A DNA stretch of 64,000 nt from an uncultured Spartobacteria bacterium (GTDB lineage Bacteria > Verrucomicrobiota > Verrucomicrobiia > Chthoniobacterales > Chthoniobacteraceae): contig CAIXGS010000027.1 of assembly GCA_903919125.1 (NCBI GenBank), positions 62,001 through 126,000 of the forward strand. Reading direction: 5' to 3'. Position 1 is the stretch's first letter. Every line of letters begins with the position of its first letter. Positions 5,452 through 54,600 of this stretch are shown piece after piece. A program made the position numbers and the translations under genes. The notes below the pieces were generated by a model, which did no database searches, was not told the origin of the DNA, and saw only the letters and a program-made list of their open reading frames with translations.

Positions 5452-6258
5452 TTACTGAAGGAGCTTCAGCGCGATGGACTGCGAGGCGTTCGCCTGCGTC
5501 AGCATTGCTGCACCGGCCTGAACTAGGATGTTCGCACGGGCGAGCTTCGAAGTTTCGGCGGCGACATCGACGTCGTAAATACGGCTGTTCGCTGCTTCAA
5601 GGTTCACTTGATTCACGTTGAGCGAATCCAAAGCAAACTGGAGGCGGCTGGATTCAGAACCATTTTGCGCCATGATGCTGGCTAGGTTCTGAACTGCGCT
5701 GGTGAGATTGGAGATGCCCGCAGAGGTGGCGTTGGCAAAGGTGGTTGCCGCCGAATAAGCGTTCGCCAGTGTGGCCTGGCTAATCGTCATGGATTGCGAG
5801 CCGTCCTGAGAAAGGAAAACGGTCAGAGTGCCAGTGGTGGTACCAGAAGAGAATAAACTCGTCCCATTGAACGAATCAGAGGTCAGGACGTTGAGTTCGC
5901 TGACCAACGAATTAAACTCTGTGCAGTAGTTGGAAATGTCAGCGGTCGTTTTGGTGACATCAGAGCCTAGAGTTGCGAGTTCGGACAAACGATCCAGAAC
6001 GCTCGCGGCGCTTTTAAGCGTACCCGCTTGAACTTGAAGCATCGAAATCGCGTTGGACACGTTCACCGCAGCGGACTGCGTACGCTTCGTTGCGGCGCTC
6101 AACTTCATCGAAACAGCTAAACCGCCAGCATCGTCTGACGGGGTTGCGATCCGCGAACCGCTTGAAAGGCGAACCAAGCTTCTCTGCAATAAGTCGCTCG
6201 CTTTCTGGAGGTTCAGAGAAGCAAGTGAAGACGAAGAATTTGTATTAATGGAGATCAT
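5452..6258 (-). CDS. Flagellin (short form, copy 1)
   Basis: A 268-residue flagellin consisting almost only of the conserved coiled-coil D0/D1 regions. The N-terminal half has LSSGSRIATPSDDAGG and the C-terminal half ends in NILVQAGAAMLTQANAS...LLQ, the usual export and filament-core signature. The middle (about 120-190) is short and rich in Ser, Thr and Ala, offering O-glycosylation sites but no D2/D3 domain. It is closely similar to the copy at 13931-14734. Odd points are a cysteine at residue 112 (flagellins usually avoid Cys; the other copy has Ser) and the lack of a clear Shine-Dalgarno before the ATG. With less biased codons than copy 2, this looks like a minor filament subunit. Confidence 0.92.
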   Translation of the reverse strand: MISINTNSSSSLASLNLQKASDLLQRSLVRLSSGSRIATPSDDAGGLAVSMKLSAATKRTQSAAVNVSNAISMLQVQAGTLKSAASVLDRLSELATLGSDVTKTTADISNYCTEFNSLVSELNVLTSDSFNGTSLFSSGTTTGTLTVFLSQDGSQSMTISQATLANAYSAATTFANATSAGISNLTSAVQNLASIMAQNGSESSRLQFALDSLNVNQVNLEAANSRIYDVDVAAETSKLARANILVQAGAAMLTQANASQSIALKLLQ

Positions 6259-6342
6259 TGGATCGTGTGCAGTTTATTGATGCTCAGTTTTCAGAGGGAA
6301 ACAACGACGCTATAACTTGGTAATCTAAGCACCGCCCAGACT

Positions 6343-6369
6343 AGTTCGGCAGATTAGGCGGAGACATTA
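6343..6369 (-). promoter_or_regulatory. Sigma-28-like promoter candidate for flagellin 1
   Basis: On the minus strand TAAT, 15 nt and GCCGAACT resemble the FliA consensus TAAA-N15-GCCGATAA (3/4 and 5/8 matches). The element ends 84 bp upstream of the flagellin ATG, almost the same distance as the candidate before flagellin 2. It is a visual match only. Confidence 0.4.
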
Positions 6370-6528
6370 GCGGAAATTAACAAAAATTAGAAAAAATTTG
6401 ATTTTTCGAGAATTAAGCTCTCAGCAGACCCTCATTTTAAGACTCAAGTCTCGCTATTCGGAAGCTCATTTTTTCGGTCAGTTATGTTTCTCTGGGGCAG
6501 CAGGCTGGATATTTGTTTGACTGATTTC

Positions 6529-6544
6529 TGGCACTGAAGTTGCT
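6529..6544 (+). promoter_or_regulatory. Sigma-54-like -24/-12 element
   Basis: TGGCAC, 5 nt, TTGCT gives GG and GC separated by exactly 10 nt, a full match to the RpoN core consensus. Predicted initiation falls about 12 nt after the GC, near 6555, directly at the ATG of the small TPR gene. Either that gene is leaderless or its true start lies a few codons inside. No enhancer site was identified. Confidence 0.45.
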
Positions 6545-6555
6545 GAACTCGTTCC

Positions 6556-6987
6556 ATGTCTGAGTCTCTGCAAAGTTTGATAAACACAGCCGTTTCCCAT
6601 GCGAAAGAACAGGCGTATGAAGCTTGTGCTGAAGCATTTGGTGAAATATTTTCAACTCACCCAGGGCACCCAGAGGCGATGCGCGCCCTAGCCTCAATCA
6701 TGCTGGACATGGGACAAACCGAGAATGCGTTATCTCTACTGGCAGACGCCGTGGATAAAGAACATCCCGACCCCGAGTCTCTACATCAGTTAAGCGTTCT
6801 TTTAAAAGGGAAAAACCGGCTCGAAGAAGCTGCGGATTTGCTGATATGCGCCGTTTCAAGTGCCCCCGACCGGCAAGATTGGATCACAGAGTTAAGGTCA
6901 CTATTAAGTCAGTTGGGGCGGAATGAGGATTTTCAGACTTACTTCCCAGACTTTCCCCAAAGCGCGCCTCCAGAAGTCACAGCGTGA
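6556..6987 (+). CDS. Small TPR protein
   Basis: A 143-residue protein made of three to four tetratricopeptide-like helical hairpins. Typical repeat positions are seen in HPGHPEAMRALASIMLDMGQTENALSLL and the following HPDPESLHQLSVLLKGKNRLEEAADLL. There is no signal peptide and no catalytic domain, so it is probably a cytoplasmic adaptor. It is divergent from flagellin 1 and upstream of the glycosyltransferase-like genes. TPRs bind flagellin in the FlmG system of Caulobacter, so a flagellin chaperone or glycosylation adaptor role is a reasonable inference, not shown. The start is the first ATG; the sigma-54-like element ends 11 bp before it. Confidence 0.7.
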   Translation: MSESLQSLINTAVSHAKEQAYEACAEAFGEIFSTHPGHPEAMRALASIMLDMGQTENALSLLADAVDKEHPDPESLHQLSVLLKGKNRLEEAADLLICAVSSAPDRQDWITELRSLLSQLGRNEDFQTYFPDFPQSAPPEVTA

Positions 6988-7332
6988 CGTACGGTGTCGC
7001 TTTATTTTAACTTTCGTAGGGCTCTGCGCGTAAGAAAGGCCAAGCGTTTTTTTTCAGTTAGAGGCCGTCACGATTTTTGGGGTAATTGTAGCGGGTCATC
7101 GCTGTAAAAGATGGTTTTGAGGCGTCGTTTTAAGGCGCAGACGGATGAAAGGCACCCATGTCTCATGGGGCTTTCTGGGCGGCTGCCCAAAATAGAGCTG
7201 GGACTGCTGAGGCATTTCCGAACACATCCATTGGGTTCCACACAACACTTCGGATGAAACTCCTCACACTGAACCCAAAATTAGGACTTTGTTCACAAAG
7301 TTACTGGACGTATTGAGACCCTAATATTCTGT
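6988..7332 (+). other. Intergenic stretch without a gene
   Basis: These 345 bp hold no convincing ORF. A T8 run at about 7047-7055 follows a weak possible hairpin. AT-rich sequence TAATAT just before 7333 could be part of a promoter for the next operon, but no clear -35 partner was seen. Confidence 0.4.
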
Positions 7333-8349
7333 ATGAGAAGCGTGCTCGAAATTTGGGAAGCGATCCAGGCTGGGGAAATTAGCGCCCCGCAGAAGGCCTC
7401 CGACTTCGTAGAACTCGCTCGGAAACTGATGCGGGCCGGCCATTCTTCGGCGGCTGCCCACGCTTTTTCCAAGGCATTCGAAATGGATCCGGGCTGTCCA
7501 GAGGCTTGCTTCGGGCTGGCAAGCCTTTTGGTGATGGCAGGGAAGGGAGAAGCCGCAGTGGAGCTTCGAACTTTGGGCTTAGATCTAAGCCGTGCCAGAT
7601 ACCCGTTGGACACATGTCTCTCGAGCGAGGCAGGAGCCAGTCCGCGCAACATATGGGTGGCGACGGGCAAAGCAGCTGATTCCCCAAATTTTGCGGCTCA
7701 AATTAGCGCGCAACTGGCAGCGGATGTTCCGGGAAACTGGACTCTGGATCATCTTAACTCTCCAAATATTCAACCAAAGGCTTGGAACGAAGTGCTGGAA
7801 CGTTGTGCCGACGCCGGTGCGGAATGGGTCGTGTTCGGAGCGGCGAATTTGGAGGTGCAACTTGGGGGGGTGCTTCCCTCACTGCAAGAGGCCAGACGCG
7901 AGTATGGCGCGGATATTGTGGGGGTGGCCGGCGGTTCGCACTTGGCGGTGGCCTCGCCCACGACCTGGGGCAGCATGTGTCTACGCTCCTCGCTTCTGGG
8001 ACAGGTGGCGTTTCGATCACTTTCTGGAGAGGTCGTGCCGAACGTGTTTGGGCCAACAACCGGTTTGGTGGACGTGTTGGACGACGTTCTACTGGCGGTT
8101 CACGTGCCCTCAGCGGTGGCAGCGGGTTGGCGGTTTAACGAGTCTTTTCCCTCCTACCACTGTGTAATGGCAAGCTGCCTTGATGCGCGTTTTCTTGGGC
8201 TGCGTTTAGCTGTCGCGCCCTTGAATATTATTCAGAACACGGAGCCCGAAGTTGAGCCGGTGCAGGAGCATTGGCAGACCAGTGAGGACCGTTTTTTGAG
8301 CCGCTACGGCACGCCACAGCCGGAAACTGAGGGCCACCCTACAACATGA
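7333..8349 (+). CDS. TPR plus glycosyltransferase-like protein
   Basis: A 338-residue protein. Residues 1-80 form a short TPR region (LARKLMRAGHSSAAAHAFSKAFEMDPGCPEA). Residues about 100-320 resemble the StrF/Glyco_tranf_2_5 type of GT-A-like domain, with IVGVAGGSHL, then DVLDDVLLAVHVPSA and a final FNESFPSYHCVMASCLDARFLG segment that mirrors the F-(T)GFH-Y-D element of that family. A strict DXD is not obvious, so catalytic activity is uncertain. It overlaps the next gene by 4 bp (ATGA), implying coupled expression. The context between flagellins suggests a role in flagellin glycosylation. Confidence 0.6.
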   Translation: MRSVLEIWEAIQAGEISAPQKASDFVELARKLMRAGHSSAAAHAFSKAFEMDPGCPEACFGLASLLVMAGKGEAAVELRTLGLDLSRARYPLDTCLSSEAGASPRNIWVATGKAADSPNFAAQISAQLAADVPGNWTLDHLNSPNIQPKAWNEVLERCADAGAEWVVFGAANLEVQLGGVLPSLQEARREYGADIVGVAGGSHLAVASPTTWGSMCLRSSLLGQVAFRSLSGEVVPNVFGPTTGLVDVLDDVLLAVHVPSAVAAGWRFNESFPSYHCVMASCLDARFLGLRLAVAPLNIIQNTEPEVEPVQEHWQTSEDRFLSRYGTPQPETEGHPTT

Positions 8350-9203
8350 AAACTCGACGTATTGGCGTGGTCGCGCCTTCTTTCACGCATCGGTCTGCCG
8401 GGATTTTCATGATGCACTATTTGGTCCATCAGCTCCGGGAATTGGGTTTTGATGCCTACTGGATTCCGCAGAATGCGCCGCTGACCGTTCATCCACATTT
8501 TGACACACCTCACGTCCAAATGAGTGGTTGTAGCGGCCCTGAAATTGCAGAGGATTGGATCATCATTTATCCCGAGGGTGTTTTCGGGAACCCATTGAAC
8601 GCAAAGCGTGTGGTGAGGTATCTCTTGAATAGGGAAAGTGCCTTTGGCGGACCCGGCATGGGCGCTGCGCCGGGAGATTATCTCCTGACTTATTCCCGCT
8701 GGTTTCATCCGACGGCGCCGGTTCTGTATTATCCTGTTTTTGAGGGCGAACTTTTAATCCGCTCCGCCCGCCTTACGGGTTCTGAACCACGCACACTCGA
8801 CGCGTATTATATTGGGAAAGGAGCGGCCCTCGGGCATTGCCCGCCTTTGGCTCGAGCGGTGGAAATCACCAGGTCATGGCCCGAGAATAAGTCCAAGCTG
8901 TACGATCTTTTGGAAAACATCCGCATTTTCTACTCCTACGACTGGCTCAGTTCCACCTTGGCGGACGCCGCTCTTATGGGATGCGAAGTGCGACTGATCG
9001 GCAACCCGGGCGCCATTGGGGTGGAGCAGTTGTTAAACTCCCCAGGCATGCCGGACCTGTGGGAGCGCGCCTCGGAGCACTCCGTTTTCATGCGACCTAG
9101 CTCACGCCCGAAATTCTTGGAGACGATCCGCAGCTATCGTGCCGAGTTTATGCCGAGCTTGCTGGAAACGCTCAAGGACATCACGCGGCACTTCGATCGC
9201 TGA
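8346..9203 (+). CDS. GT-B-like glycosyltransferase-related protein
   Basis: A 285-residue protein of uncertain family. The N-terminus has a Rossmann-like strand-loop-helix (RRIGVVAPSFTHRSAGIFMMHYLVHQLRELG) as in GT-B enzymes that search for a sugar donor. The C-terminal half contains IFYSYDWLSSTLADAALMGCEVRLIG, resembling the nucleotide-sugar-binding region in which an acidic residue and a helix precede a Gly-rich turn. It is translationally coupled to the preceding TPR/GT-like gene and convergent with the giant TPR-GT41 gene, 30 bp away. It could add or modify a sugar on flagellin or on its donor. The substrate cannot be read from sequence. Confidence 0.5.
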   Translation: MKTRRIGVVAPSFTHRSAGIFMMHYLVHQLRELGFDAYWIPQNAPLTVHPHFDTPHVQMSGCSGPEIAEDWIIIYPEGVFGNPLNAKRVVRYLLNRESAFGGPGMGAAPGDYLLTYSRWFHPTAPVLYYPVFEGELLIRSARLTGSEPRTLDAYYIGKGAALGHCPPLARAVEITRSWPENKSKLYDLLENIRIFYSYDWLSSTLADAALMGCEVRLIGNPGAIGVEQLLNSPGMPDLWERASEHSVFMRPSSRPKFLETIRSYRAEFMPSLLETLKDITRHFDR

Positions 9204-9233
9204 GAGTACACTGGGAGTCACTTCACCCGTTTC

Positions 9234-12200
9234 TCACAAGGGAGTTTTGCAGTAATGACGCCAAGCGGAGCGAATTTCGCGCTCAAAGGCCTGCGTGTAG
9301 GCTTCGCCGTTGGAAAGCTGCACGTCCATTCGAGTGCGCATGGATTGGCGAATTTCTGAGAGGCGAGGCAGGTCGGCCGCGAGAAGAGCTGCTTTTCGAA
9401 CGTAATCCTCTGGGTCACTCGCGATGAATTCATCCAAACCGAGAGAGTGTTGGAGCGCGGCGCCGGCTCTGGCAGAAGGCGTATTCCCCGCAATAGTGAG
9501 CGTAGGGACGCCCATCCAGGCAGCGATTGCTGAAACGGTGAGTCCGCCAAACGGGAAACAATCCAGCACGAAATCAATCTCATCATGCATGTGTAAATAC
9601 GCATCGTGGGATTTGCGTGGGCTGGCAATAATACGCTCTGGCGCAATACCTTCAGCCGCCATGGTAGCCTCAAACGGAGTACCCTCCGGGGCCACCGCGA
9701 CCAATCGGCTATTGGGTACTAACTTGAGCACCTGTGCCCAAGCCTTCAGCACTTCGGAATTGGCTTTGGCGAAATTGTTGAAAGAGCCAAAGGTGACACA
9801 CCCCTTTTCAAGGGCGGGCAATGGAGCGATTGGAGGAAGTTGCTGTCCAGGTTCGGGCGTTGGGGGCTGAAAGCAAAAGGCCAGAGGCAACCGCATGAGC
9901 TGTTCGGAATGAAACCGCTCAGAGGTCCCCGGTGGATCCATGAAGGCGTCCGTGACCCTATAATCCATGGCGTCCAAACCGGAAGTTTGCTGCATGCCAA
10001 TCATCGTAATTTGAAGCGGCGCAGGCTTCCGGGCAAAAGTGAGGAGACGCGACCCTTGGGAGTGGCAGACGAGATCCACAAGCACATCGATTTCTAGAGA
10101 GCGCAGTTTTTCCGCAAGTGCTTCATCAGACAAATTTCCGGCGTCCAACCAGCCATCGCAGATACCTTTAAGCCTTTCAGTGGTGCGGTCCTGCCAAGTG
10201 TGGGAAAGCACGCCCCAAACCTCAAACTGCGTCCTGTCATGGTGGCGAAACAGGGGTTCCACAAAAAAGGCGACAGAGTGCCCGCGCAGATCAGGCGATA
10301 CATACGCTATGCGCAAACGGCGCTCCGGATCCCGCAAATTGGAATGCGGTTGGTGCGGGCGCAGGGGCGCTTCAAAGCGCTGCGAAAATTCGCGATGCAG
10401 GTTGAACGCTGTTTCTGGGTCGATTCCCGAAACGTAATTAAGGGAATGCAGATGATTGCTAAACGAGTTGGCGCTGTCCGGCTCAAATTGGCGGCTTTTG
10501 CGGTAGGCGGCGGAGGCCTCGTTTGGCAAGCCCAGAAACAGCAGGCAATTACCCAAGTTCAGGAAGGCCGATGGCGAATCAGGCACTTGCTCGATAACTT
10601 TCTCAAGGGTGCGGATGGCGGCCATAAATTCACCACACTTTTCCTGATAAACAGCGAGATTCAGCAGCAAGGCAGGATCGGAGGAGAAACGAATCGCGGG
10701 TTCGGCAACCAATAAAGCCTCCCGAAATGAGCCCTTTTGATACAACAGGTGACCCAAGTTGAGATACGATTCCCAAACTGAAGGGCTCATTCCGATACTT
10801 TTACGGCATAGCGCTTCAGCCCGGTCCCTGTCGCCGTCTTCAGTTAGCATGCACGCCAAACCCAAAAGAGCATCTGGGCGCACCTCTGGGAGTTTGCACG
10901 CGGTCTCGAAAGCCTCTTTCGCCTCCAGACGCTTGCCTTGCCGCAGTAGCGAGCGCGCCCACCAAGAATAGTCCGGAGCCGTTTGTAAGCATTGTCGAAC
11001 TTTGTCTAGCGCTTCCTCGGCAGCATTCCCCGCCTCAGCACGCAGTAAAAGTTCCGCGCAAAGCGCCGCTTTTTTCCAGTTGTCCGCGCTGGGACAAACT
11101 TTCTGCACACGCAGTGTGAGAGCCCGACGGAGCTCAGAATCTGCGACGATTTCTACGAGAAATTCCTCCAATAACTTTGATGGCTCCAAAGTCGCCTCAA
11201 GCGTCTCAAGTCTGGCCTCCAAAATGGGATCAAGCGGGACTGAGACGGACTGGGAAAGCGACGAGGGAATTGGAGGAGAAGCCTGCGAGGCGGGTGGCGC
11301 ACTGGGGAGCGATTGAGAGGATTGCCCCTGTTCAAGAGCTGTTACACCAGAAATATCTTCCGAAGAGGAATTTAGCTCTGGAATAGTACTTGAATAACGA
11401 TCCCACATACTGAGGAATTGGCCTTCTAACTCCCGAGTGTAAGCGGTTGCATCGCACCAGTGAACCGCCATCAGACCGCGCAAGGACTCGCGAATAGGAG
11501 CCAAAGCTTGTGGATTCCGAACAAACCGCGCGGCGATGGACAAATATTCGTCCGGACTTGCGGCGATAAATTGATCCAGTCCAATGCGCTTGAGTAAGTT
11601 CGCACCCGCCCTGCTGGCGGAGGTGTTCCCCGTAAGGGTGACCATCGGAACCCCCATCCAAAGCGAATTCATCGAAACGGTCAGGCCGGCGAATGGAAAG
11701 GTATCCAGAATCAGATCCACCTCGGCGTGGGAAGCGAGGTACCCCGGAACAGGGAGGCGTGGCAGCACTGTAAATCGTTGGCTTGGAATGCCGCGCTTCT
11801 GCATTTCCCGCAGAAAAAACTCCCCTGAATCCGCGACAATTTGCATCCGCGTCTCGGGTAAATAATCCAGCACTTTAGCCCACAAATCCAGCACCTCGGG
11901 AGTCAACTTCGCGAGGTTGTTGTAGGATCCAAAGGTAAAAGGGCGCCCATGCAAAGCGGGCGTCGGCGCTGGGTCGGGAGCCTGTGGATACGGCTTGAAG
12001 CAAAGGGCGCCCGTTCGCATCCGGATCAAGCGCTCGGAATTTAAAGACTCGCTCACGCCTTCCGGATCCAGTCCTGCGTCTGTGATTCGGTAATCCATAC
12101 TTTGCAAGCCGGTTGTCTGCATGCAGCCAATCATAGTAACCTGCACCGGTGCTGGCTTTAACGCGAAAGCAGGGAGACGGTTTCTAGTGGAATGACCGGC

Positions 12201-13508
12201 CAAGTCCACCAGGATATCGATGCCGTCGGCCCGGACTAACTCGCAGAACGCTTCATCCGATAACGACTCCACTTGACGCCAGTGCCAAGGCAGGCTGCGA
12301 ATGCGTTCCGTAATTTGGTCGACGCGGGCAAAATTATAATAACAGAAAACCTCGAAGGCAGATGCGTCGTGGGACAGTAATATCGGCTCGATAAAGGAGG
12401 CTACCGGATGGTTGCAAAAGTCGCCCGAAACGTAGCCAACTCTGAGTTTCCGCGGAAACCGGCGCACAGGGTAGGCCGTGTAGCGTTTGGAAGCCTTCGG
12501 CTGCTCAATGAGCGTACTATATTTACGGTAAAACTCGAAAAGCTCCTGAGGATCTTCATACGGAAGGTAGTTGGCGCAATAAACAATCGCCTCGTAAGCA
12601 TGTGTAAGATCAGGATTTAATTTTATTGCCTTGGTATATTCCGCGACTGCTTCAGCGCTCCGACCCACGCGCGTCAAAATTGCGGCGTGAAGCATCCGAT
12701 ACTTACGCTCTTGCGGCGCCAACTGGAGAAGAATTCGCGCAATCTCTAGCGCTTCCCCCGGTCTGTTACACTCCCTCAAGGCAAATGCCAGTCGGGCCAA
12801 GTCCAAGGGCTGGTTGCCCCGCATTTTAGTGAGCTTGAGTAAATGCGGCGCGGCTTCTCCGAATCGGTCTATCTGACTAAGCGTCACGCAAAAGTTATGC
12901 AGCAGGTCCTCCCAATCGGGTTGGAGCGCAAGCGCTTTGCGATACGCGTCTGCAGCGGCGTGTAATTCGCCCTGTTCCTGAAGCGCGTTCCCCATGTTGT
13001 AGAGCGCCAGCCCAGACGTTGGGTTCACGCGAATTGCCGCGCCATGAAACTCCAACGCCTCGCTCAGTCGCCCCAAAATCCGCAACACAGATCCCGCCAT
13101 GGTCAGGCTGACATCCGAGTACGGGCGCAGCTCCACTGCCCGCCTGAACGCTTCAAATGCTTCATTATAAAGCTTTAAGCCTTGTAGTGCAACCCCGTAA
13201 TTATGGTGCAGATGAACACTCTCGGAATGAATTTTAAGCGCACGCTCCAGATACGCCGCGGCCTCGGTTGGATGCCCCGTGCTCGCCAAGGCCTCGGAAA
13301 TCAGGGTGCAATCACTCTCTGTGCCAAGAGGCTGAGTCGCCAATTCAAGGGCGAGCAAGCGATAGCCTTCTAGGTCGTTACGTGCCTTGAGCGCAATCAA
13401 AGCCGAGGCCGACGTGGGGCGCGATGGCGGGGTGGCGAGGGCTAAATCGGCCGGACTGGACGGATCGAGGGAGGGGGCGGACTGATTTTCCGAAGCGGGG
13501 GCGGACAT
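9234..13508 (-). CDS. Tandem TPR-SPINDLY (GT41, OGT-like) protein
   Basis: A 1424-residue cytoplasmic protein with two complete copies of a TPR plus GT41 architecture. TPR array 1 spans about residues 75-320, GT41 domain 1 about 350-720, a Ser/Pro-rich linker 725-770, TPR array 2 about 790-1035 and GT41 domain 2 about 1060-1420. Each catalytic domain shows the family landmarks: LRVGYVSGDFCNHPVASF / LRIAYVSPDLRGHSVAFF, ILVDLAGHS / VLVDLVCHS, MDYRITDA / MDYRVTDA with DP-G, F-FGS-NN-AK (donor-binding Lys), and LDTFPFAGLTVS-N-LWMGVP / LDCFPFGGLTVSAIAAWMGVP. Such enzymes transfer a UDP- or CMP-linked sugar to Ser/Thr. With flagellins on both sides, flagellin O-glycosylation is the most likely role. 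Confidence 0.88.
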   Translation of the reverse strand: MSAPASENQSAPSLDPSSPADLALATPPSRPTSASALIALKARNDLEGYRLLALELATQPLGTESDCTLISEALASTGHPTEAAAYLERALKIHSESVHLHHNYGVALQGLKLYNEAFEAFRRAVELRPYSDVSLTMAGSVLRILGRLSEALEFHGAAIRVNPTSGLALYNMGNALQEQGELHAAADAYRKALALQPDWEDLLHNFCVTLSQIDRFGEAAPHLLKLTKMRGNQPLDLARLAFALRECNRPGEALEIARILLQLAPQERKYRMLHAAILTRVGRSAEAVAEYTKAIKLNPDLTHAYEAIVYCANYLPYEDPQELFEFYRKYSTLIEQPKASKRYTAYPVRRFPRKLRVGYVSGDFCNHPVASFIEPILLSHDASAFEVFCYYNFARVDQITERIRSLPWHWRQVESLSDEAFCELVRADGIDILVDLAGHSTRNRLPAFALKPAPVQVTMIGCMQTTGLQSMDYRITDAGLDPEGVSESLNSERLIRMRTGALCFKPYPQAPDPAPTPALHGRPFTFGSYNNLAKLTPEVLDLWAKVLDYLPETRMQIVADSGEFFLREMQKRGIPSQRFTVLPRLPVPGYLASHAEVDLILDTFPFAGLTVSMNSLWMGVPMVTLTGNTSASRAGANLLKRIGLDQFIAASPDEYLSIAARFVRNPQALAPIRESLRGLMAVHWCDATAYTRELEGQFLSMWDRYSSTIPELNSSSEDISGVTALEQGQSSQSLPSAPPASQASPPIPSSLSQSVSVPLDPILEARLETLEATLEPSKLLEEFLVEIVADSELRRALTLRVQKVCPSADNWKKAALCAELLLRAEAGNAAEEALDKVRQCLQTAPDYSWWARSLLRQGKRLEAKEAFETACKLPEVRPDALLGLACMLTEDGDRDRAEALCRKSIGMSPSVWESYLNLGHLLYQKGSFREALLVAEPAIRFSSDPALLLNLAVYQEKCGEFMAAIRTLEKVIEQVPDSPSAFLNLGNCLLFLGLPNEASAAYRKSRQFEPDSANSFSNHLHSLNYVSGIDPETAFNLHREFSQRFEAPLRPHQPHSNLRDPERRLRIAYVSPDLRGHSVAFFVEPLFRHHDRTQFEVWGVLSHTWQDRTTERLKGICDGWLDAGNLSDEALAEKLRSLEIDVLVDLVCHSQGSRLLTFARKPAPLQITMIGMQQTSGLDAMDYRVTDAFMDPPGTSERFHSEQLMRLPLAFCFQPPTPEPGQQLPPIAPLPALEKGCVTFGSFNNFAKANSEVLKAWAQVLKLVPNSRLVAVAPEGTPFEATMAAEGIAPERIIASPRKSHDAYLHMHDEIDFVLDCFPFGGLTVSAIAAWMGVPTLTIAGNTPSARAGAALQHSLGLDEFIASDPEDYVRKAALLAADLPRLSEIRQSMRTRMDVQLSNGEAYTQAFEREIRSAWRHYCKTPL

Positions 13509-13823
13509 AAAAAACTATTAGCCTAACATTACAGCACGACAGTGGCGGCGTGGAGATAAAGTAAAAAACTACAGGAGAAGCTTCTCTTAAAAGGGTCCAG
13601 ATAAAAGAGGGGGCCTAATTGCTGAAGTTTCCTTCAAGGCTTCCTCTTATGTTTACTCCGCTTAATGACACAAAGCAGCACATCTTGAAAGCCTCAGAAG
13701 AATCAGGGAAATTCCTCTTCCACGATTCACTCAAAATCAATTAGGATCAACAAGTACTAAACAGGCCTCAGGGGGGCTCGGGACTGGCTGGCGAAGGGAA
13801 AATCATTTTTCCAAAACATTTGC
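13509..13823 (+). other. Intergenic region between GT41 gene and flagellin 2
   Basis: About 315 bp separate the divergent GT41 gene from the flagellin 2 promoter candidate. No ORF of note was found. The half near the GT41 gene is A-rich and should contain its promoter, but no clear element stands out. Confidence 0.4.
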
Positions 13824-13850
13824 TAAAGCTTTTCTGCTTCCCACCGAAAT
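13824..13850 (+). promoter_or_regulatory. Sigma-28-like promoter of flagellin 2
   Basis: TAAA, 15 nt, ACCGAAAT closely follows the FliA consensus TAAA-N15-GCCGATAA. It leaves an untranslated leader of about 70 nt before the ATG at 13931. A good Shine-Dalgarno (AAGGAAG, 13917-13923) lies in that leader. Confidence 0.6.
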
Positions 13851-13930
13851 AATCCTCGGGTATTCCAAAGACGTCGCAGCCATGAAGGCTTCGACACCCA
13901 GACCACTAAACAACACAAGGAAGTAATATT

Positions 13931-14734
13931 ATGGCAGTCGTAATCAACACCAATCAATCTGCGTCCTACGCAGCAATGAACCTGACCAAGTCCAGCGACT
14001 TGCTTCAGAAAAGCCTCGCCCGTCTCTCCAGCGGTTCACGTATCGCTAATCCAGCTGACGACGCAGGTGGACTCGCAGTTTCCATGAAACTGTCTGCCGC
14101 CATCAAGCGTACTGACGACACGGCGACGAACGTTTCCAACTCCCTTTCCTTCCTCCAGACTCAGGCTGGCTCCCTCAAGAGCGCTGCTGCAGTTCTGGAT
14201 CGGATGTCCGAACTCGCAACCCTCGCTGGCGATGTGACCAAGACGAGCAACGATACCGCGAACTACTCCACGGAATTCAACAACCTGTACACAGAACTCG
14301 GAAAGCTTTCTGCTGACCAGTTCAATGGCATCTCGCTCTTCTCGACCTCCACTGGTACTTTGACTGTTTACCTGTCCCATGACGGTTCCCAGTCGATGAC
14401 CATCGATCAAGCTGGTCTCTACGCTTCTGTCTCCACGATGAGCGCTCTCTCGAGCCTCACCGGTGGCAGCATCAGCACTGTGACTGCAGCTATCCAGTCC
14501 CTTGCGACGCTCATGGCCTCCAACGGCGCTCAGGCAAGCCGCCTCCAGTTCGCTCTTGATTCGCTCAACGTGAACAAGGTGAACCTCGAAGCCGCTAACA
14601 GCCGCATCTACGACGTCGACGTCGCAGCTGAAACGACGAAGCTCGCTCGTGCGAACATCCTCGTTCAGTCTGGTGCAGCAATGGTCTCCCAGGCCAACGC
14701 AGCTTCCCAGATCGCTCTCAAGCTTCTCCAGTAG
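13931..14734 (+). CDS. Flagellin (short form, copy 2, likely major)
   Basis: A 267-residue flagellin with conserved N-terminal (LSSGSRIANPADDAGG) and C-terminal (ARANILVQSGAAMVSQANA) coiled-coil regions and a minimal Ser/Thr-rich centre (about 120-190), so it forms a D0/D1-only filament core. It is highly similar to copy 1 at both ends. Codons are strongly biased to a few C-ending forms (ctc, tcc, aac, gac), unlike its neighbours. Together with a strong Shine-Dalgarno, a sigma-28-like promoter and a strong terminator, this points to high expression as the main filament subunit. No cysteine was seen. Hook, motor and chaperone genes are not in the window. Confidence 0.94.
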   Translation: MAVVINTNQSASYAAMNLTKSSDLLQKSLARLSSGSRIANPADDAGGLAVSMKLSAAIKRTDDTATNVSNSLSFLQTQAGSLKSAAAVLDRMSELATLAGDVTKTSNDTANYSTEFNNLYTELGKLSADQFNGISLFSTSTGTLTVYLSHDGSQSMTIDQAGLYASVSTMSALSSLTGGSISTVTAAIQSLATLMASNGAQASRLQFALDSLNVNKVNLEAANSRIYDVDVAAETTKLARANILVQSGAAMVSQANAASQIALKLLQ

Positions 14735-24194: not shown

Positions 24195-27100
24195 TCACTT
24201 TTGCGGGGGGAGCGCAAACGCCACCCACGTGTCGCCTGCGGGCCCTCCTAATTTACCACCGCCTGTGGCGGGTTGCAGGATGAACTGGCGCCCGTTCACC
24301 TCGTAGCAGGCCGGAGGTGCAGTGCCGTGGAGCGGTAACTCGTGACTCCATAATTCCTCGCCCGTTTTGGAATCAAAGGCGCGAATTTTCCGATCCCGCG
24401 TTCCACTGGCGAAGACCAGTCCCGTTTTTGTGACCATCGCGCCGCCGAAGTTTTCCTGCCCCGTCTTTGGCACGCCCTTCGCGGTCAGCTCTGAATATTC
24501 GCCCAGTGGGACACGCCAGGCCGTTGTTCCTGTGTTAAGGTTGATACAACTCAGCGTCCCCCAAGGTGCGGAACATGCGGGATACCCGTTCGCGTCCATC
24601 ACGCGGTTGAAGCCGGAGAAGGTCCAGTCCCTGCCTCCGGTCTTAGCGTTGGTTAAAGGACGGTCGCGGCACAACAGAAAGTTGAGCAGTGGCTGGATTT
24701 GTTCCTCCGAAAGATGGGCCATGGGAGGCATCGAGGCGCGTCCGGTTTTCAAAATTGCACGGATATCGGCTTCTGCGAGGCGGTGTCTGACCCCGCGCAT
24801 GGGCGGGGCGTGTGCAAGCCCTTTCCGATCAGGGCCGTGGCATGGGGAACAGTTGGTTTGATAAACTTGTTCTCCTGCGTTTGCGGGCACGAGCGGGGCC
24901 GGATCGTCGTCCCGGAAACAGGTGATGCTCCAGGGGATTTCATTGGAGGTGACGTATAAAAAACCGTCGGGATCCGCCGCCGCCCCGGTCCACTCGGCAC
25001 CGCCGTGGATGTTAAAAAGGAGCGTGGGCCGCGCTTCGTCGAAGGAGGGGAAGGGGCCGAGATTGGCGCGTTCCACGAGGGGAAGGACTGCGGCGCTCGC
25101 TGCGGGATCGGCGGGCAGATCCGCCTTGGTGTAGGACTGCCGAGCAAAGGGCGGAGGAATTTCAGGCGCGGGTTGGTATACGGCGGTGGTGTCTCCCGGG
25201 AGGGCGTGTGTATCGACCCGCACAAAACGGAAGTCGTACAACGGTTCGCCCGTGACTCTGTCAAGCAAGAGCGTGTTACCCAACTTGGTCACCTGCGCCA
25301 CGGCATCCACGCGGCGGCCGTGGCGTTCGACCGTTACGAGGTTCGGTGGCGCGGGAATGTCCCAGTCCCAAATGTCGTGCCGCAGCTCCTGAAAATGCCA
25401 GAGCCGCCGTCCGGTCGCGGCGTCGAGGGCCAGGACGCAGTTGGCGAACAGGTTGTCCCCCTGATGATTGATGCCGATAAAGTTGGGTTTTGGGGAGCCA
25501 AGTCCAATGTATGCGATGCCCCGAGATTCGTCCATCGCCATTCCACCCCAGCAGTTTGCGCCGCTTTCCAGAGCACTCCATGTTTCGTTGCCGTATTCGC
25601 CGTTCGGAGGGCGCGTCTTGAACGTCCACAGGCACTTTCCGTTGCGGGCGTCGTAGCCGTAGACGTCGCCGCTGTAGCCGGGCAACACGCAGATATTTCC
25701 ATGCATGGCTCCCACAGCAGTAGTTCCTCCCGGCACATGCGTTTTGCCTTTGTCCCCAAAGCTAGGAATAGGCTTTCCTGTTTCAGGATTTAGGGCGATG
25801 AGCCAGTTGCCGTCGCCGAATAGCAGCCGGGGTGCGTTTTCCGCATCGCCCTTCCAAAAAAGCAAACCCCGCCGGGCGGGCGAGGTGGATTCTTTTCCAA
25901 TCAGACTGCTAGGGGCAAAGCGCCATCGCTCCTCGCCGGTGGCGGCATCAAGGGCAGCGATGTTCTTGCCCGGAGTCGGTGTGAAAATAACCCCCTTCAC
26001 CACAATCGGATTGCACTGAATGTTGGCCGAGCCGTCGGCACTCCGGTAAGTCCACGCGGGCCGGAGTTCGCGCACATTTTCACGCGTGATTTGCGTGAGA
26101 CTTGAAAAGCGGTTTGAGGTCGGTCCCCCTAGGGAACGTTCCCAGTCGGCGTGGTTTTGGGTGACTGGCCAGCCGTTGGCTGGAGTCAGTTTTTCTGGGG
26201 CAGCTGCGGGGAGGATGAAGCTGGGCGGGAGGCTGTTTCGATTCTCGGGCGCGGGCGCGCGGAAAGCAGTCGGCACTTGAGGAGTCTGAGGCGCTTGTGA
26301 AGAACCCGTGCCGGCACCGAGCACCTGCGCGGGAAGGTCGTCGAAGTTCCAAAGCCCCAGAGTCTGCGCATCGGAATTGAGCGGATTGTCTCCGGGCGGG
26401 TCGATGTTCCGGATGCCCGAGGAGATACGCACATTGTCGATAAGTCCGTCGCAACCGAGGGAGCTCTCGACTAACCCACCGATGGCAAGTCCGCCTGGAT
26501 GCGGATTACCAGAACGTTCTCGAATTGAGGCTTCTTTCACCAGTTTTCCGTCGATGAAAAGGCAGGCTTTTTCGGCGGCGATAGTGGCGGCGACGGCGTG
26601 CCAAGTGCCGTCACAGATGTTCACGTCGCTTTTGACTTCGCCCCCGCGCCCGGGCAGGTATAAGCTGAGAAAGCCCGATTTGGCGTAGGTGTAGAATTCC
26701 CAATGGTCTGCGGAAGCCTTGGGATCGGAGGCGACGAGAATATTGAAACCAGTAGCACTGTTGATTTTGACCCGACATTCCACGGTGAGGGGCAGGGTGC
26801 GGAACGCGTCCTTTCCCTCCACGACGAGGCGTCCGCAGAGGGCTTTTCCAAAGGCAGGGTTGAGGGAGGGAACTCCGGTGGCGGGGGCGCTTGGAGAGGC
26901 TAATTTGAGCGTCGCCGGCGCATCTTTAAAGGTGCGCAGGCCAGGCTTGACTTTGGGGGCCTCGCCGTCGAGTTGAGGCAAAAGCCAGTTGAGTCCGTCA
27001 AGGTTGTCCAAGAGGCGTCCCTCCGCATCCTCGTTTGTGTGGTTAAGGATTCCAACGGGGCCTTTGTACCCGCTTTCGCGCAACTGGTGCAGGATCCGCA

Positions 27101-27914
27101 GATCCTCGGTGCCTGCTCCTAGTGGGAGGATCTTGCGGCCTTTTTCGTCCCCACCGATGTCCATCCCGTTGAGATTAATGCAGAGCAGGTGCGGAAGGGT
27201 GCGGGCCAGTATGCGCACGATCCGGTCGAGTTGACCGTGGCCGTGGTGAAAATTGTAAACGATGCCTACGTTGGTGACCCCGTCTGCCTTGAGTGCCTCG
27301 ATGATGGCAAGCTGGTTCTCAGGCTCCCCAAACCAGCTGCCGTGGTTGTAGAGGCCAACGGTGCAGCCGATTTCTCTGGCAGCAGCGCAGATGGGCTTGA
27401 GACGGGTGAGTTCAGCCGCGATGCGGGCTTTCTGGTCGGCTTCATCCTTCACCGCGATTGGCCCGCCGCCACCGCTGACCCAGAGTTGTGGCTTTACGCC
27501 GTATCGCTTGAAAAGTTCCAGCGCGGCTCTTGCCTCGTCGTTGAGATTACCGGGGAACCACCAACCGAGTAGCTCGATGTGATGCTTGGCTAGTGCAGCA
27601 AGTTCAGCGTCCCACTGGGGGATGTGTTCCTTGCGATAATCATAAACCAACTTAGAAATTCCCAGCTTCTCCAACATCGCTGCCCGCTCTTCGGGTCCGC
27701 GCCGTTTGCCATCGTAGGGAACGATGCACCATGCGGCTAAGTTCGAGCGGCGGAAAAGGTCGCTTTGGTTGTCCGTCGCCAATTTGGTGCGGGCTGCGGG
27801 AGACGCTGGGTTCGGAGCGGACTCAACGCCTTGGATTTGAGCGAGGGGGGCAATTCCGAGCAGGAGTGCCGCAAAAGAAACGAGGAACCGCTTGGTGGAG
27901 GCGAGGGAATTCAT
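24195..27914 (-). CDS. Secreted fusion: sugar isomerase-like TIM barrel, LamG, PQQ quinoprotein and cytochrome c
   Basis: A 1239-residue exported protein. A signal peptide covers 1-27. Residues about 55-330 are a xylose-isomerase-like TIM barrel (WCIVPYDG, GVKPQLWVSGGGG, VGLYNHGSW, FHHGHGQLDR). Residues 350-530 are a LamG/concanavalin-like domain (HWEFYTYAKSGF, LIDNVRISSGIRN). Residues 590 to the end are a quinoprotein beta-propeller (ALDAATGEERWRF, GRRLWHFQELRHDIWDWDIPAPP) into which a class I cytochrome c is inserted (NCSPCHGP at about 1020, SMPP as axial Met region). The propeller resembles membrane-type PQQ glucose or alcohol dehydrogenases. Periplasmic sugar oxidation with electron transfer is inferred. 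It is divergent from a PAS-AraC gene that probably controls it. Confidence 0.85.
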   Translation of the reverse strand: MNSLASTKRFLVSFAALLLGIAPLAQIQGVESAPNPASPAARTKLATDNQSDLFRRSNLAAWCIVPYDGKRRGPEERAAMLEKLGISKLVYDYRKEHIPQWDAELAALAKHHIELLGWWFPGNLNDEARAALELFKRYGVKPQLWVSGGGGPIAVKDEADQKARIAAELTRLKPICAAAREIGCTVGLYNHGSWFGEPENQLAIIEALKADGVTNVGIVYNFHHGHGQLDRIVRILARTLPHLLCINLNGMDIGGDEKGRKILPLGAGTEDLRILHQLRESGYKGPVGILNHTNEDAEGRLLDNLDGLNWLLPQLDGEAPKVKPGLRTFKDAPATLKLASPSAPATGVPSLNPAFGKALCGRLVVEGKDAFRTLPLTVECRVKINSATGFNILVASDPKASADHWEFYTYAKSGFLSLYLPGRGGEVKSDVNICDGTWHAVAATIAAEKACLFIDGKLVKEASIRERSGNPHPGGLAIGGLVESSLGCDGLIDNVRISSGIRNIDPPGDNPLNSDAQTLGLWNFDDLPAQVLGAGTGSSQAPQTPQVPTAFRAPAPENRNSLPPSFILPAAAPEKLTPANGWPVTQNHADWERSLGGPTSNRFSSLTQITRENVRELRPAWTYRSADGSANIQCNPIVVKGVIFTPTPGKNIAALDAATGEERWRFAPSSLIGKESTSPARRGLLFWKGDAENAPRLLFGDGNWLIALNPETGKPIPSFGDKGKTHVPGGTTAVGAMHGNICVLPGYSGDVYGYDARNGKCLWTFKTRPPNGEYGNETWSALESGANCWGGMAMDESRGIAYIGLGSPKPNFIGINHQGDNLFANCVLALDAATGRRLWHFQELRHDIWDWDIPAPPNLVTVERHGRRVDAVAQVTKLGNTLLLDRVTGEPLYDFRFVRVDTHALPGDTTAVYQPAPEIPPPFARQSYTKADLPADPAASAAVLPLVERANLGPFPSFDEARPTLLFNIHGGAEWTGAAADPDGFLYVTSNEIPWSITCFRDDDPAPLVPANAGEQVYQTNCSPCHGPDRKGLAHAPPMRGVRHRLAEADIRAILKTGRASMPPMAHLSEEQIQPLLNFLLCRDRPLTNAKTGGRDWTFSGFNRVMDANGYPACSAPWGTLSCINLNTGTTAWRVPLGEYSELTAKGVPKTGQENFGGAMVTKTGLVFASGTRDRKIRAFDSKTGEELWSHELPLHGTAPPACYEVNGRQFILQPATGGGKLGGPAGDTWVAFALPPQK

Positions 27915-51464: not shown

Positions 51465-51684
51465 GTTCTGGGAAGGCTAAGGGGGGATTTAATAGTAACA
51501 CGCGCTGCGCAGTTCGCAAGGGTTTACAGTGGCTCGCGCCCTTATCAAAACAGACACGAGAGTCCGATTGAGACGGCATGCACTCGGCATGATTGCGCCT
51601 CAAAGCCGCCAAAAACCGCTTGTGCGCGCACGCTCGCTCCAAGCTTGCGCACTTGCCCAGTCTCGCCGAGCGTTCGCCCTGCCC

Positions 51685-54600
51685 ATGGCACACTCCTACC
51701 ACCCTCCCAGCGGCCCAGGCTTCATTGAAATCCGTGGGGCGCGCCAAAACAATTTAAAGGGCTTCGACGTTTCGCTACCCCTCGGCAAACTCATCGTCGT
51801 CTCAGGTCCAAGCGGCAGCGGAAAATCCAGCTTCGCTTTCGACACCCTCTACGCGGAAGGACAGCGCCGTTATGTCGAGACCTTCAGCCCGTACACCCGT
51901 CAGTTCTTTGACCGGATGGACAAACCCGCTGTCGACGAAATCCGAGGAATCCCCCCAGCGATCGCGATCCAACAGGTCAACGCCGTCAAATCCACCCGCT
52001 CCACAGTCGGAACCATCACAGACCTCAACGACTATCTCAAACTGCTGCTCCCCCGCGTCGTCGAGGCGTTCTGTCCGGGATGCAATCAAGCGGTACGCCC
52101 TTCAACCGCCGTTTCCATTGTGGATGGCCTGCTTGCGGCCGCAGAGCCTCTCCTGATCACCTTCCCGTTGGCCGTTCCACCGGACGCCGTTCCCAGCGAA
52201 TTCTTGGCTTTTCTTCAACAACAAGGCTACCAGCGAATCTGGGCCAAAGGCGCGGTGATGCGCACGGACGAGCCGGTTTCAAAACTTCCCCCGGAGGTTT
52301 TTGTCATCCAAGATCGCCTTACGCCCTCGCCCGAAAACAAACCGCGCCTCTCGGAAGCTGTGGAAATCGCGTTACGTTTCGGGAAGGGCAAAATAGCGAC
52401 AATCGCAGGAGAACGGATTCAACCCTTCGTCACGGGTTGGCATTGCGCCGCCTGTGAGCGTTCGCTCCCCGAACCGACTACGGGGCGTTTTTCGTTCAAC
52501 CATCCTCAGGGAGCCTGTGCAGCTTGTAAAGGCTTTGGGCGGATCATCACCATAGATCTGCTCCGCGCAGTACCTAATCCAGAGCTAAGTATCGAGGACG
52601 GCGTGGTTAAGCCGTTCCAAACCGAAGGCGGTGCCGATTGCCAGCGAGATTTACTCCGCCAAGCCGCAAAGCGCGGGATCAATTGCCGCAAACCGTTCTC
52701 CAAACTTTCCGTCGCTGACCAGCAGTGGATATTAAACGGGGAGGATCCTTCACGCTCAGGCGACTACCTGTGGAAGAAGGACTTGTGGTACGGCGTGCGC
52801 GGTTTTTTTGAATGGATGGAGGCCAAGAGTTACAAAATGCACGTGCGCGTGCTCTTGAGTCGTTATCGCACTTACACGGTGTGCCCAGACTGTCACGGAA
52901 ACCGATTCGCTCCGTACACCATGAACTTTCGCTGGGACGGCCTGACTGCGGCAGACTTGATGCGTTTGCCGATCAGCGAGTTCCACGCTTTTATTCGTGA
53001 GCGCCGGGAACGTCTTTCCAAAGATCCCACGGCGGACCTTCTCTCGGGCGAGGTTGAGTCCAGGCTGCAATACCTTCTGGACGTTGGACTAGGATACCTG
53101 ACGTTGGAACGCCCCACGCGCTCTCTCAGCGGCGGCGAAACTGCGCGCGTTAATCTCACGACCTGCTTGGGGACCGCTTTGGTGAACACGCTTTTTGTGT
53201 TGGACGAGCCAAGCATCGGCCTACATCCGCGGGATACAGGACGGCTTTTGCACGTAATTAAAAGACTTCGAGACAAGGGTAATACGTTGGTCGTGGTGGA
53301 ACACGAGGAAGCGGTTTTGCGCGCTGCGGACCATTTCATCGAAATCGGCCCAGGGCGCGGTGAAGCGGGCGGCCACCTTGTGTACGAGGGGCCGGCGGAG
53401 GGGCTCCTTTCTGGAGCGACGAGGACACTCACGGGGGATTATCTCACTGGAAAAAAGAGTGTTCCGGTACGCACCAAACGCCGAAAACCAAAGGGCTGGG
53501 TGAAGGTGGAAGGGGCAAGCGCCCACAATTTAAAGGAGGTCGACGCCGACTTTCCGTTGGGTGTACTTTGTTGTGTCACAGGGGTTTCTGGCTCTGGAAA
53601 AAGCACGCTCGTGCATAGCGTATTGTACGGCCAGCTTGCGAAGGCGCAGGGACTGGAGCTAGATGAGCCACCGGGCGAGTGCCGGGCGCTCCACGGTGCG
53701 CAAAAGGCGGGGCCGGTAGTGCTCGTCGATCAGACGCCTCTGTCCAAAACGCCGCGTTCCACTCCCGCGTTGTATCTCGGGATTTTCGACGAAATCCGCG
53801 CGAAGTTTGCAAAGACGCCGGAGGCTAAGGAGGCGGGGTTCACCGCAGGTAGTTTTTCGTTTAATTCTGGTAAAGGCCGTTGCGAACGCTGTGGGGGAAG
53901 CGGCTATGAGAAGATTGAGATGCAGTTTTTGAGTGATGTTTATGTGCGTTGTCCGGAGTGCGAGGGGAAGCGTTACCAGCCGCAAGTAAGACAGATTTTG
54001 GTGGAGGGAAAATCGATCGATGAGGTGTTGGACCTCACTATCTCAGAGGCGATTGAATTTCTAAAAACGGCGAATATACCGTCCGCAATCAAGCCGCTTG
54101 AAACACTCGAAGAACTGGGGCTCGGATACTTGCGGCTGGGTCAGCCTCTCAATGGGCTTTCCGGCGGCGAGGCCCAACGCATCAAGCTAGCCGAGCGGCT
54201 TATTCAACGCTCGAAAACTGGGGCGTTTCTCATCTTGGACGAGCCCACCACAGGCCTGCATTTAGACGATATCGTCTTGCTGGTCGCAGCACTGCACAAG
54301 CTCGTCGACGATGGTCACACGGTTCTCGTCATCGAGCACAACCCAGACGTGATCCGCGGTGCTGATTACATCATTGACCTCGGGCCAGAAGCTGGTGCCG
54401 AGGGCGGCCACATTCTGGTGGCAGGCACTCCGGAAGACGTTGCGGCCTGCGCGGAGTCTCACACCGGCCGCTTTTTAAAGGCAGACGGCGGTTTTCAAGA
54501 GGAACTGCGCGTCGCAGAAACTACTGATGTTTATCCTATTGCGGAGGCACCCGAGGGCATCCACATCGTCGGAGCGAGGCAGCACAATCTGAAAAATTTG

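Follow-up and report, generated by a model that had tools for sequence, protein, structure and literature searches.

The stretch of 64,000 nucleotides analysed here (the window) covers positions 62001-126000 of contig C27 in a draft genome of an uncultured Spartobacteria bacterium (4.34 Mb, 95% complete, Chthoniobacteraceae-like). Its first quarter contains a candidate locus of flagellin glycosylation. Two flagellin genes, flaA and flaB, surround the gene of a small tetratricopeptide repeat (TPR) protein, tprS, two genes previously described as glycosyltransferase-like, gtA and gtB, and the gene of a double TPR-GT41 protein, dGT. All six genes of the preliminary description are confirmed as open reading frames with checked translations (Table 1). 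The locus was compared with 197 genomes of the order, 12 of which belong to the genus of the window, and stretches of up to 20 kb were mapped in the relatives.

Table 1. Features of the candidate flagellin glycosylation locus (window positions) and giant GT41 fusion proteins of other genera (positions within their own loci).
Feature	Position	Strand	Remarks
flaA, short flagellin	5452..6258	-	Flagellin_N + Flagellin_C; clade of 7 rows, support 100/100
Sigma-54 (-24/-12) promoter-like site of tprS, TGGCACTGAAGTTGCT	6529..6544	+	Sole exact match in 64 kb
tprS, 143-residue TPR protein, proposed docking or holding partner of FlaA	6556..6987	+	TPR_19, E 5e-10
gtA, TPR N-terminus and C-terminal part of no assigned family	7333..8349	+	TPR_19, E 5e-6
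gtB, GT-B fold glycosyltransferase without named family, proposed glycan extender	8346..9203	+	Model pLDDT 68
dGT, TPR-GT41-TPR-GT41, 1424 residues, proposed flagellin O-glycosyltransferase	9234..13508	-	PF13844, 278 bits
flaB, short flagellin adjoining dGT	13931..14734	+	Flagellin_N + Flagellin_C
Giant fusion proteins	L081:12612-17945, L082:12145-17460, L084:2987-9811, L085:3628-9759, L086:2-7462		Some inside flagellar loci

Both FlaA and FlaB contain the Pfam domains Flagellin_N (E 1e-22 in both) and Flagellin_C (E 2e-16 and 8.5e-16, respectively), which, together with the coordinates, confirms that two short flagellin genes flank the island. Since the two domains are separated by just 40-45 residues or so, the proteins look like D0/D1-only flagellins. 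They are the sole true flagellins of the genome; a third flagellin-family match, a frame of 376 residues, looks like FlgL. This match and the genes of FliS and FlhA are spread over contigs C52 and C28. FliS and FlhA are both encoded on C28, and thus the cell should build its flagella from parts encoded elsewhere. The claim that the window contains no further flagellar genes agrees with the families searched, although not every window gene was scanned. The flagellin tree (49 rows) places flaA in a clade with one row from each of seven genomes. Weak sigma-28-like sites with one to five mismatches, located approximately 96-119 nt upstream of several flagellin genes, are only suggestive. No sigma-54 sites with fewer than two mismatches were found upstream of flaA, flaB, dGT or gtB.

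The dGT protein scores 278.4 bits against PF13844 (curated cut-off 25), with four matching stretches that form two GT41 units at residues 351-702 and 1061-1417. Orthologues were found in eight of the 12 genomes of the genus (G000, G054, G060, G100, G108, G112, G160, G168; 53-61% identity to the protein of the window), and only in genomes with flagellin. All eight orthologues retain, in each half, the essential lysine and the histidine of the HP/HS motif, and both GT41 domains are apparently active. For both halves, the best matches among solved structures are SPINDLY and the OGT of Thermobaculum. The active-site lysine is essential in SPINDLY, and the donor-gate residue is Y744 in SPINDLY, C917 in human OGT and F517 in ApHMW1C (PMC9715652). 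In the dGT of the window this position is phenylalanine in both halves; among the orthologues, the phenylalanine is found in all C-terminal halves and in five of the eight N-terminal ones. The motifs GCMQTTG/GMQQTTG and GLTV replace the GYPxTTG and GTTTT of most GT41 proteins from other genera in the set. These features argue against plain OGT chemistry, and the sugar is not named thereby. In the GT41 tree (51 rows) the N-terminal unit groups with single-domain GT41 proteins of the genus, and the C-terminal unit lies outside them. As the halves are placed apart, a recent tandem duplication is ruled out as the origin of dGT.

The tprS profile detects genes in seven of the 197 genomes at E < 1e-59, and these are exactly the seven genomes of the flaA clade. 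The other five genomes of the genus gave only TPR noise, and the rest of the order gave no match at E 1e-12. In all seven genomes flaA and tprS are divergent neighbours, and from the remaining five of the genus they are jointly absent. In G116 tprS is interrupted by the end of the contig. The exact sigma-54 site (consensus TGGCAC-N5-TTGCW) starts 27 nt upstream of the tprS start codon, and 0.09 such matches would be expected in the window. Sites are present upstream of all seven tprS genes, with 0, 0, 0, 1, 1, 1 and 2 mismatches and at a distance of 27-29 nt from the conserved ATG; in shuffled upstream regions, at most one mismatch is reached in 0.4% of trials. The DNA-binding domain of RpoN is encoded in all 12 genomes of the genus. 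The usual geometry of sigma-54 promoters fixes the start of the mRNA relative to the -24/-12 site. With this geometry, the tprS mRNA would begin 2-4 nt before the ATG and would be almost leaderless. A docking or holding function of TprS is plausible. The second matches of the profile are often the TPRs of dGT, which possibly reflects ordinary TPR similarity. A role as a substitute for FliS is ruled out, as FliS is present in the genome.

The relatives distinguish two modules. Module A consists of flaA and the divergent tprS (seven of seven genomes), with gtA or gtB downstream of tprS on the same strand in four of the seven (the window, G100, G112, G168). Module B consists of dGT and a flaB-type flagellin gene within approximately 2.4 kb of it (six of the eight dGT genomes; the dGT contigs of G100 and G168 carry no flagellin gene). 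In the relatives flaA-tprS(-gtB) and flaB-dGT are located separately, and thus the window contains two modules side by side and no fixed cassette. The compact system of the preliminary description is therefore not supported as a unit; gtA, moreover, was recognised in one other genome only. Contig C256 of G116 (L089), which carries flaB-type flagellin genes and a partial dGT, is 100% identical to contig C34 of G060 (L073) over its whole 4299 bp and is probably misbinned. It was omitted from the dGT counts and retained in the flagellin and GT41 trees and in the co-occurrence count; without it G116 keeps a flagellin gene on C137 and would lose GT41.

GT41 and flagellins co-occur beyond chance across the order. 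Among the 197 genomes, 40 contain a flagellin-family gene, 36 contain GT41, and 28 contain both; GT41 is thus present in 28 of the 40 flagellin genomes and in eight of the 157 others (Fisher's exact test, p = 1.2e-17, uncorrected for kinship). After removal of the genus of the window the proportions are 17 of 28 and eight of 157 (p 3e-11, again uncorrected). In at least 14 of the 28 genomes holding both, the two genes are at most 10 kb apart, the contigs being short. The preliminary description had regarded a TPR-GT41 gene common in flagellin-free genomes as an argument against its interpretation. The family does occur in eight of 157 such genomes, and so the GT41 domain is not exclusive to flagellin genomes; dGT itself was found only together with flagellin. 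As a separate observation, four tandem GT41-TPR genes occur in L111 (G136:C48:144841-153780), and no flagellin-family gene was found in G136.

Of the two proteins described as glycosyltransferase-like, gtB fits this description; for gtA it is unproven. Profile searches assigned no family to gtB. However, its AlphaFold model (pLDDT 68, pTM 0.64) has a two-domain GT-B fold that spans most of the protein. The best structural match, among the families covered by the VIA list, is 8xsh, a glucosyltransferase of Actinobacillus minor (Z 12.6, rmsd 4.0, 253 residues, 15% identity), followed by WsaF (Z 11.7) and TtOGT (Z 10.4); matches in the viral fold library are mostly general glycosyltransferases. 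No match to gtB was found in the phage and plasmid collections. The gene is present in four of the 197 genomes, all from the genus of the window and all among the seven with tprS. It adjoins tprS in G112 and G168, is one gene away from it in the window, and adjoins dGT in the window and in G100. The nearest named records bearing gtB are metagenome-assembled genomes of uncultured Spartobacteria bacterium and Chthoniobacteraceae bacterium. A function of gtB in glycan extension is plausible by analogy. In a beta-proteobacterial metagenome-assembled genome (L119:4002-7778) a distant gtB relative lies near the gene of a 635-residue protein with weak HMW1C_N and HMw1_D2 matches; the same locus holds epimerase and FkbM methyltransferase genes. 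For gtA no glycosyltransferase family was matched even at E 10, the model (pLDDT 44.7) is too poor for fold comparison, and a relative was recognised in G100 only.

Other genera of the order contain giant proteins that combine GT2 or GT4, a divergent GT41-like unit, TPRs and a GT41 unit. Two of them, of 1777 and 1771 residues, carry GT2 (G083, G142), one of 2043 residues has two GT2 stretches (G061), and one of 2274 residues has GT4 (G012). The protein of G117, cut by the start of its contig, comprises at least 2486 residues with Glyco_trans_1_2, GT2, two GT4 stretches and both GT41 units. The G083 gene shares its locus with FliD, two flagellins, a sigma-54 activator and an FlgL-like gene, with FliS on the same contig, and the G061 gene adjoins a flagellin gene and lies near DegT, FkbM, WbqC and sulfotransferase genes. 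Giants in flagellar loci support the building of flagellin glycans as a shared job, and their composition suggests an assembly-line layout. In the double proteins of other genera the N-terminal GT41-like unit has a changed His motif and a long branch (3.3) in the tree; judged by these sequences they are a different case from dGT. The second GT41 gene of the window's own genome (L093:8905-12867, contig C78) encodes a 1320-residue TPR-GT41-GT4 fusion and is distant from the flagellin genes.

It is improbable that a nonulosonic acid serves as the nucleotide-sugar donor. The sole NeuB relative of the genome, which is 95% complete, scores 115 bits, far below the curated cut-offs of 340 for PseI and 400 for NeuB, and pseudaminic or sialic acid as the donor is thus unsupported. 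No NeuB match at E < 1e-30 was found in 19 of the 28 genomes with both flagellin and GT41. The genes directly downstream of flaA-tprS-gtB in G112 encode glucose-1-phosphate cytidylyltransferase, CDP-glucose 4,6-dehydratase, a DegT aminotransferase, an epimerase, a methyltransferase, a thiamine pyrophosphate (TPP) enzyme, a HAD protein and, as the last one, a NeuB-like protein (L077:11102-19759 and L172). A CDP-glucose dehydratase with 69% identity is encoded on another contig of the window's genome. Given this run and this dehydratase, a CDP-activated deoxysugar is a candidate donor, and no more than that. The NeuB-like protein of the window's genome is encoded on contig C26 (L171:3266-9939). 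The genes clustered with it encode a HAD protein, an AroB-related sugar phosphate cyclase, a TPP enzyme and an SDR-like protein, and the group may form an undescribed sugar pathway.

The sequence data make it rather probable that the window contains a cytoplasmic flagellin-glycosylation locus built of two modules, each with a flagellin and a TPR protein. In module B, newly made flagellin (FlaB at least) would be held by the TPR arrays of dGT, and the two GT41 domains of this enzyme would transfer sugar to serine or threonine residues, either at two sites or in two successive steps. In module A, the sigma-54-driven tprS would be expressed probably before the late flagellin, and TprS would separately dock or hold FlaA. 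Further sugars would be added by gtB and perhaps by gtA. Observed directly are the genes and their domains, the retained catalytic residues, the linkage and co-occurrence with flagellin, the pairing of flaA with tprS and the conservation of the sigma-54 site; the substrate, docking by the TPRs, the order of these reactions, the assignment of each enzyme to its flagellin and the donor are inferred. The core of the preliminary description, a duplicated TPR-GT41 enzyme linked to flagellins and accompanied by a separate small TPR partner, is supported by the Pfam domains, by adjacency, within the genus and in the wider order, and a role of dGT in flagellin glycosylation is likely. In the open literature on flagellin glycosylation in Verrucomicrobia and on GT41 or TPR flagellin enzymes, no tandem-GT41 flagellin enzyme was found.

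The dGT system is best read as FlmG-like in its logic. In Caulobacter crescentus the TPR part of FlmG binds flagellin and the glycosyltransferase part is needed for modification; FlmG requires pseudaminic acid and accumulates ahead of the FlaF chaperone (PMC7591256). Both systems have a cytoplasmic protein that is tied to flagellins and in which an N-terminal TPR array is joined to a glycosyltransferase part, and the early FlmG echoes the possibly early, sigma-54-made TPR partner TprS. However, FlmG consists of 596 residues with one TPR and one glycosyltransferase part (same source), whereas the present locus combines two GT41 units with a stand-alone TPR protein and additional enzymes. Of the FlmG logic proposed in the preliminary description, the TPR array joined to the glycosyltransferase part (here twice) and the linkage to flagellins are retained; the sugar of FlmG is unsupported here. 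We do not class the system as FlmG because no nonulosonic-acid synthase that passes its curated cut-off was found.

In Actinobacillus pleuropneumoniae, the GT41-class enzyme NGT is cytoplasmic and paired with AGT, a glucosyltransferase that lengthens the glycan (PMC5303269). This pair of a GT41 starter and a second enzyme is a useful model for gtB; however, its glycans are N-linked and on adhesins, and it involves neither a TPR array nor flagellin. SPINDLY and human OGT share with dGT the TPR-GT41 architecture, the essential lysine and the active-site histidine (PMC9715652). They differ in having a single catalytic unit, Tyr or Cys in place of Phe at the donor gate, and a function in nucleocytoplasmic regulation rather than in flagella. 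A further comparison is provided by Listeria. There GmaR acts as the antirepressor of MogR, and its glycosyltransferase family is other than GT41. Like the proteins considered here, GmaR has TPR and glycosyltransferase parts coupled to flagellar expression (PMC9638930, for part of this description).

Several observations weigh against the proposed locus function. GT41 is missing from twelve flagellin genomes, and eight genomes have GT41 but no flagellin-family gene, so the link is strong and not absolute. Serine and threonine are not enriched in the central parts of flagellins from genomes with GT41 (mean 0.26, n=56, vs 0.23, n=9). The identity of gtA as a glycosyltransferase is unproven. TPRs bind many things, and tprS is also present in two genomes, G054 and G060, in which no gtA or gtB was detected; therefore its job cannot depend on these genes. 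Indeed, the presence of tprS alone with flaA in these two genomes would also be expected if it encoded an export chaperone or a regulator of flagellin expression, resembling type III chaperones or GmaR and unrelated to sugars, with dGT the only glycosylating protein. A conserved sigma-54 site fits a gene of the flagellar regulon, and the tprS profile is weakly similar to the type III secretion chaperones SctY and SycD/LcrH (E 9e-5 and 2e-4, far below the cut-offs). However, the latter may be no more than the usual resemblance among TPRs, FliS is already available as an export chaperone (in ten of the 12 genomes of the genus, that of the window included), and in four of the seven genomes tprS is followed by gtA or gtB. 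We regard this explanation as somewhat doubtful.

It is unlikely that gtA and gtB are surface polysaccharide genes that came to lie between the flagellin genes by accident. All four close gtB genes adjoin tprS, sit one gene from it, or adjoin dGT. The distant relative from Vogesella (L118) does lie in a locus for polysaccharide synthesis, which also encodes GT2 enzymes, a Polysacc_synt transporter and a DegT aminotransferase. The run that follows gtB in G112, with CDP-glucose, DegT, methyltransferase and TPP-enzyme genes, points the same way at first sight but is readable either way, because flagellin glycans also need sugar-nucleotide genes. Finally, dGT would be a general cytoplasmic protein glycosyltransferase of the OGT/SPINDLY type, with no preference for flagellin, if its closest solved relatives and the flagellin-free GT41 genomes, including the one with four tandem copies, were taken as the guide. 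The restriction of its orthologues to flagellin genomes, where they mostly adjoin flaB, and the way GT41 tracks flagellin across the order make this very unlikely.

Two further genes of the window have unusual domain composition. The 1887-residue product of an open frame at 51529-57192 is apparently a double UvrA; it has several parts of ABC ATPases and two UvrA interaction domains. A 1239-residue protein encoded at 24195-27914 combines a xylose-isomerase-like barrel, a laminin-G-like domain, a PQQ propeller and cytochrome c.

Beyond the locus of two flagellin-plus-TPR modules, it is possible, though we put this forward tentatively, that the order contains a separate class of cytoplasmic flagellin glycosylation. 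It would be free of nonulosonic acids and arranged as an assembly line, with glycosyltransferases fused or in tandem and joined to a TPR docking array, on which the glycan of the docked flagellin would grow. Flagellin paralogues would have TPR partners of their own, made ahead of time from near-leaderless sigma-54 mRNAs. Read in this way, the giants carry up to six glycosyltransferase modules, and the locus considered here carries a tandem GT41. It is poorly understood how cytoplasmic glycosyltransferases select flagellin and whether each paralogue can have its own glycan. Here each flagellin gene is accompanied by that of a different TPR protein; flaA and tprS form one inherited unit whose promoter is conserved, and paralogue-specific docking thus becomes testable with small proteins. 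Tandem and fused GT41 enzymes would also be of use where defined glycans are to be built on proteins in the cytoplasm.

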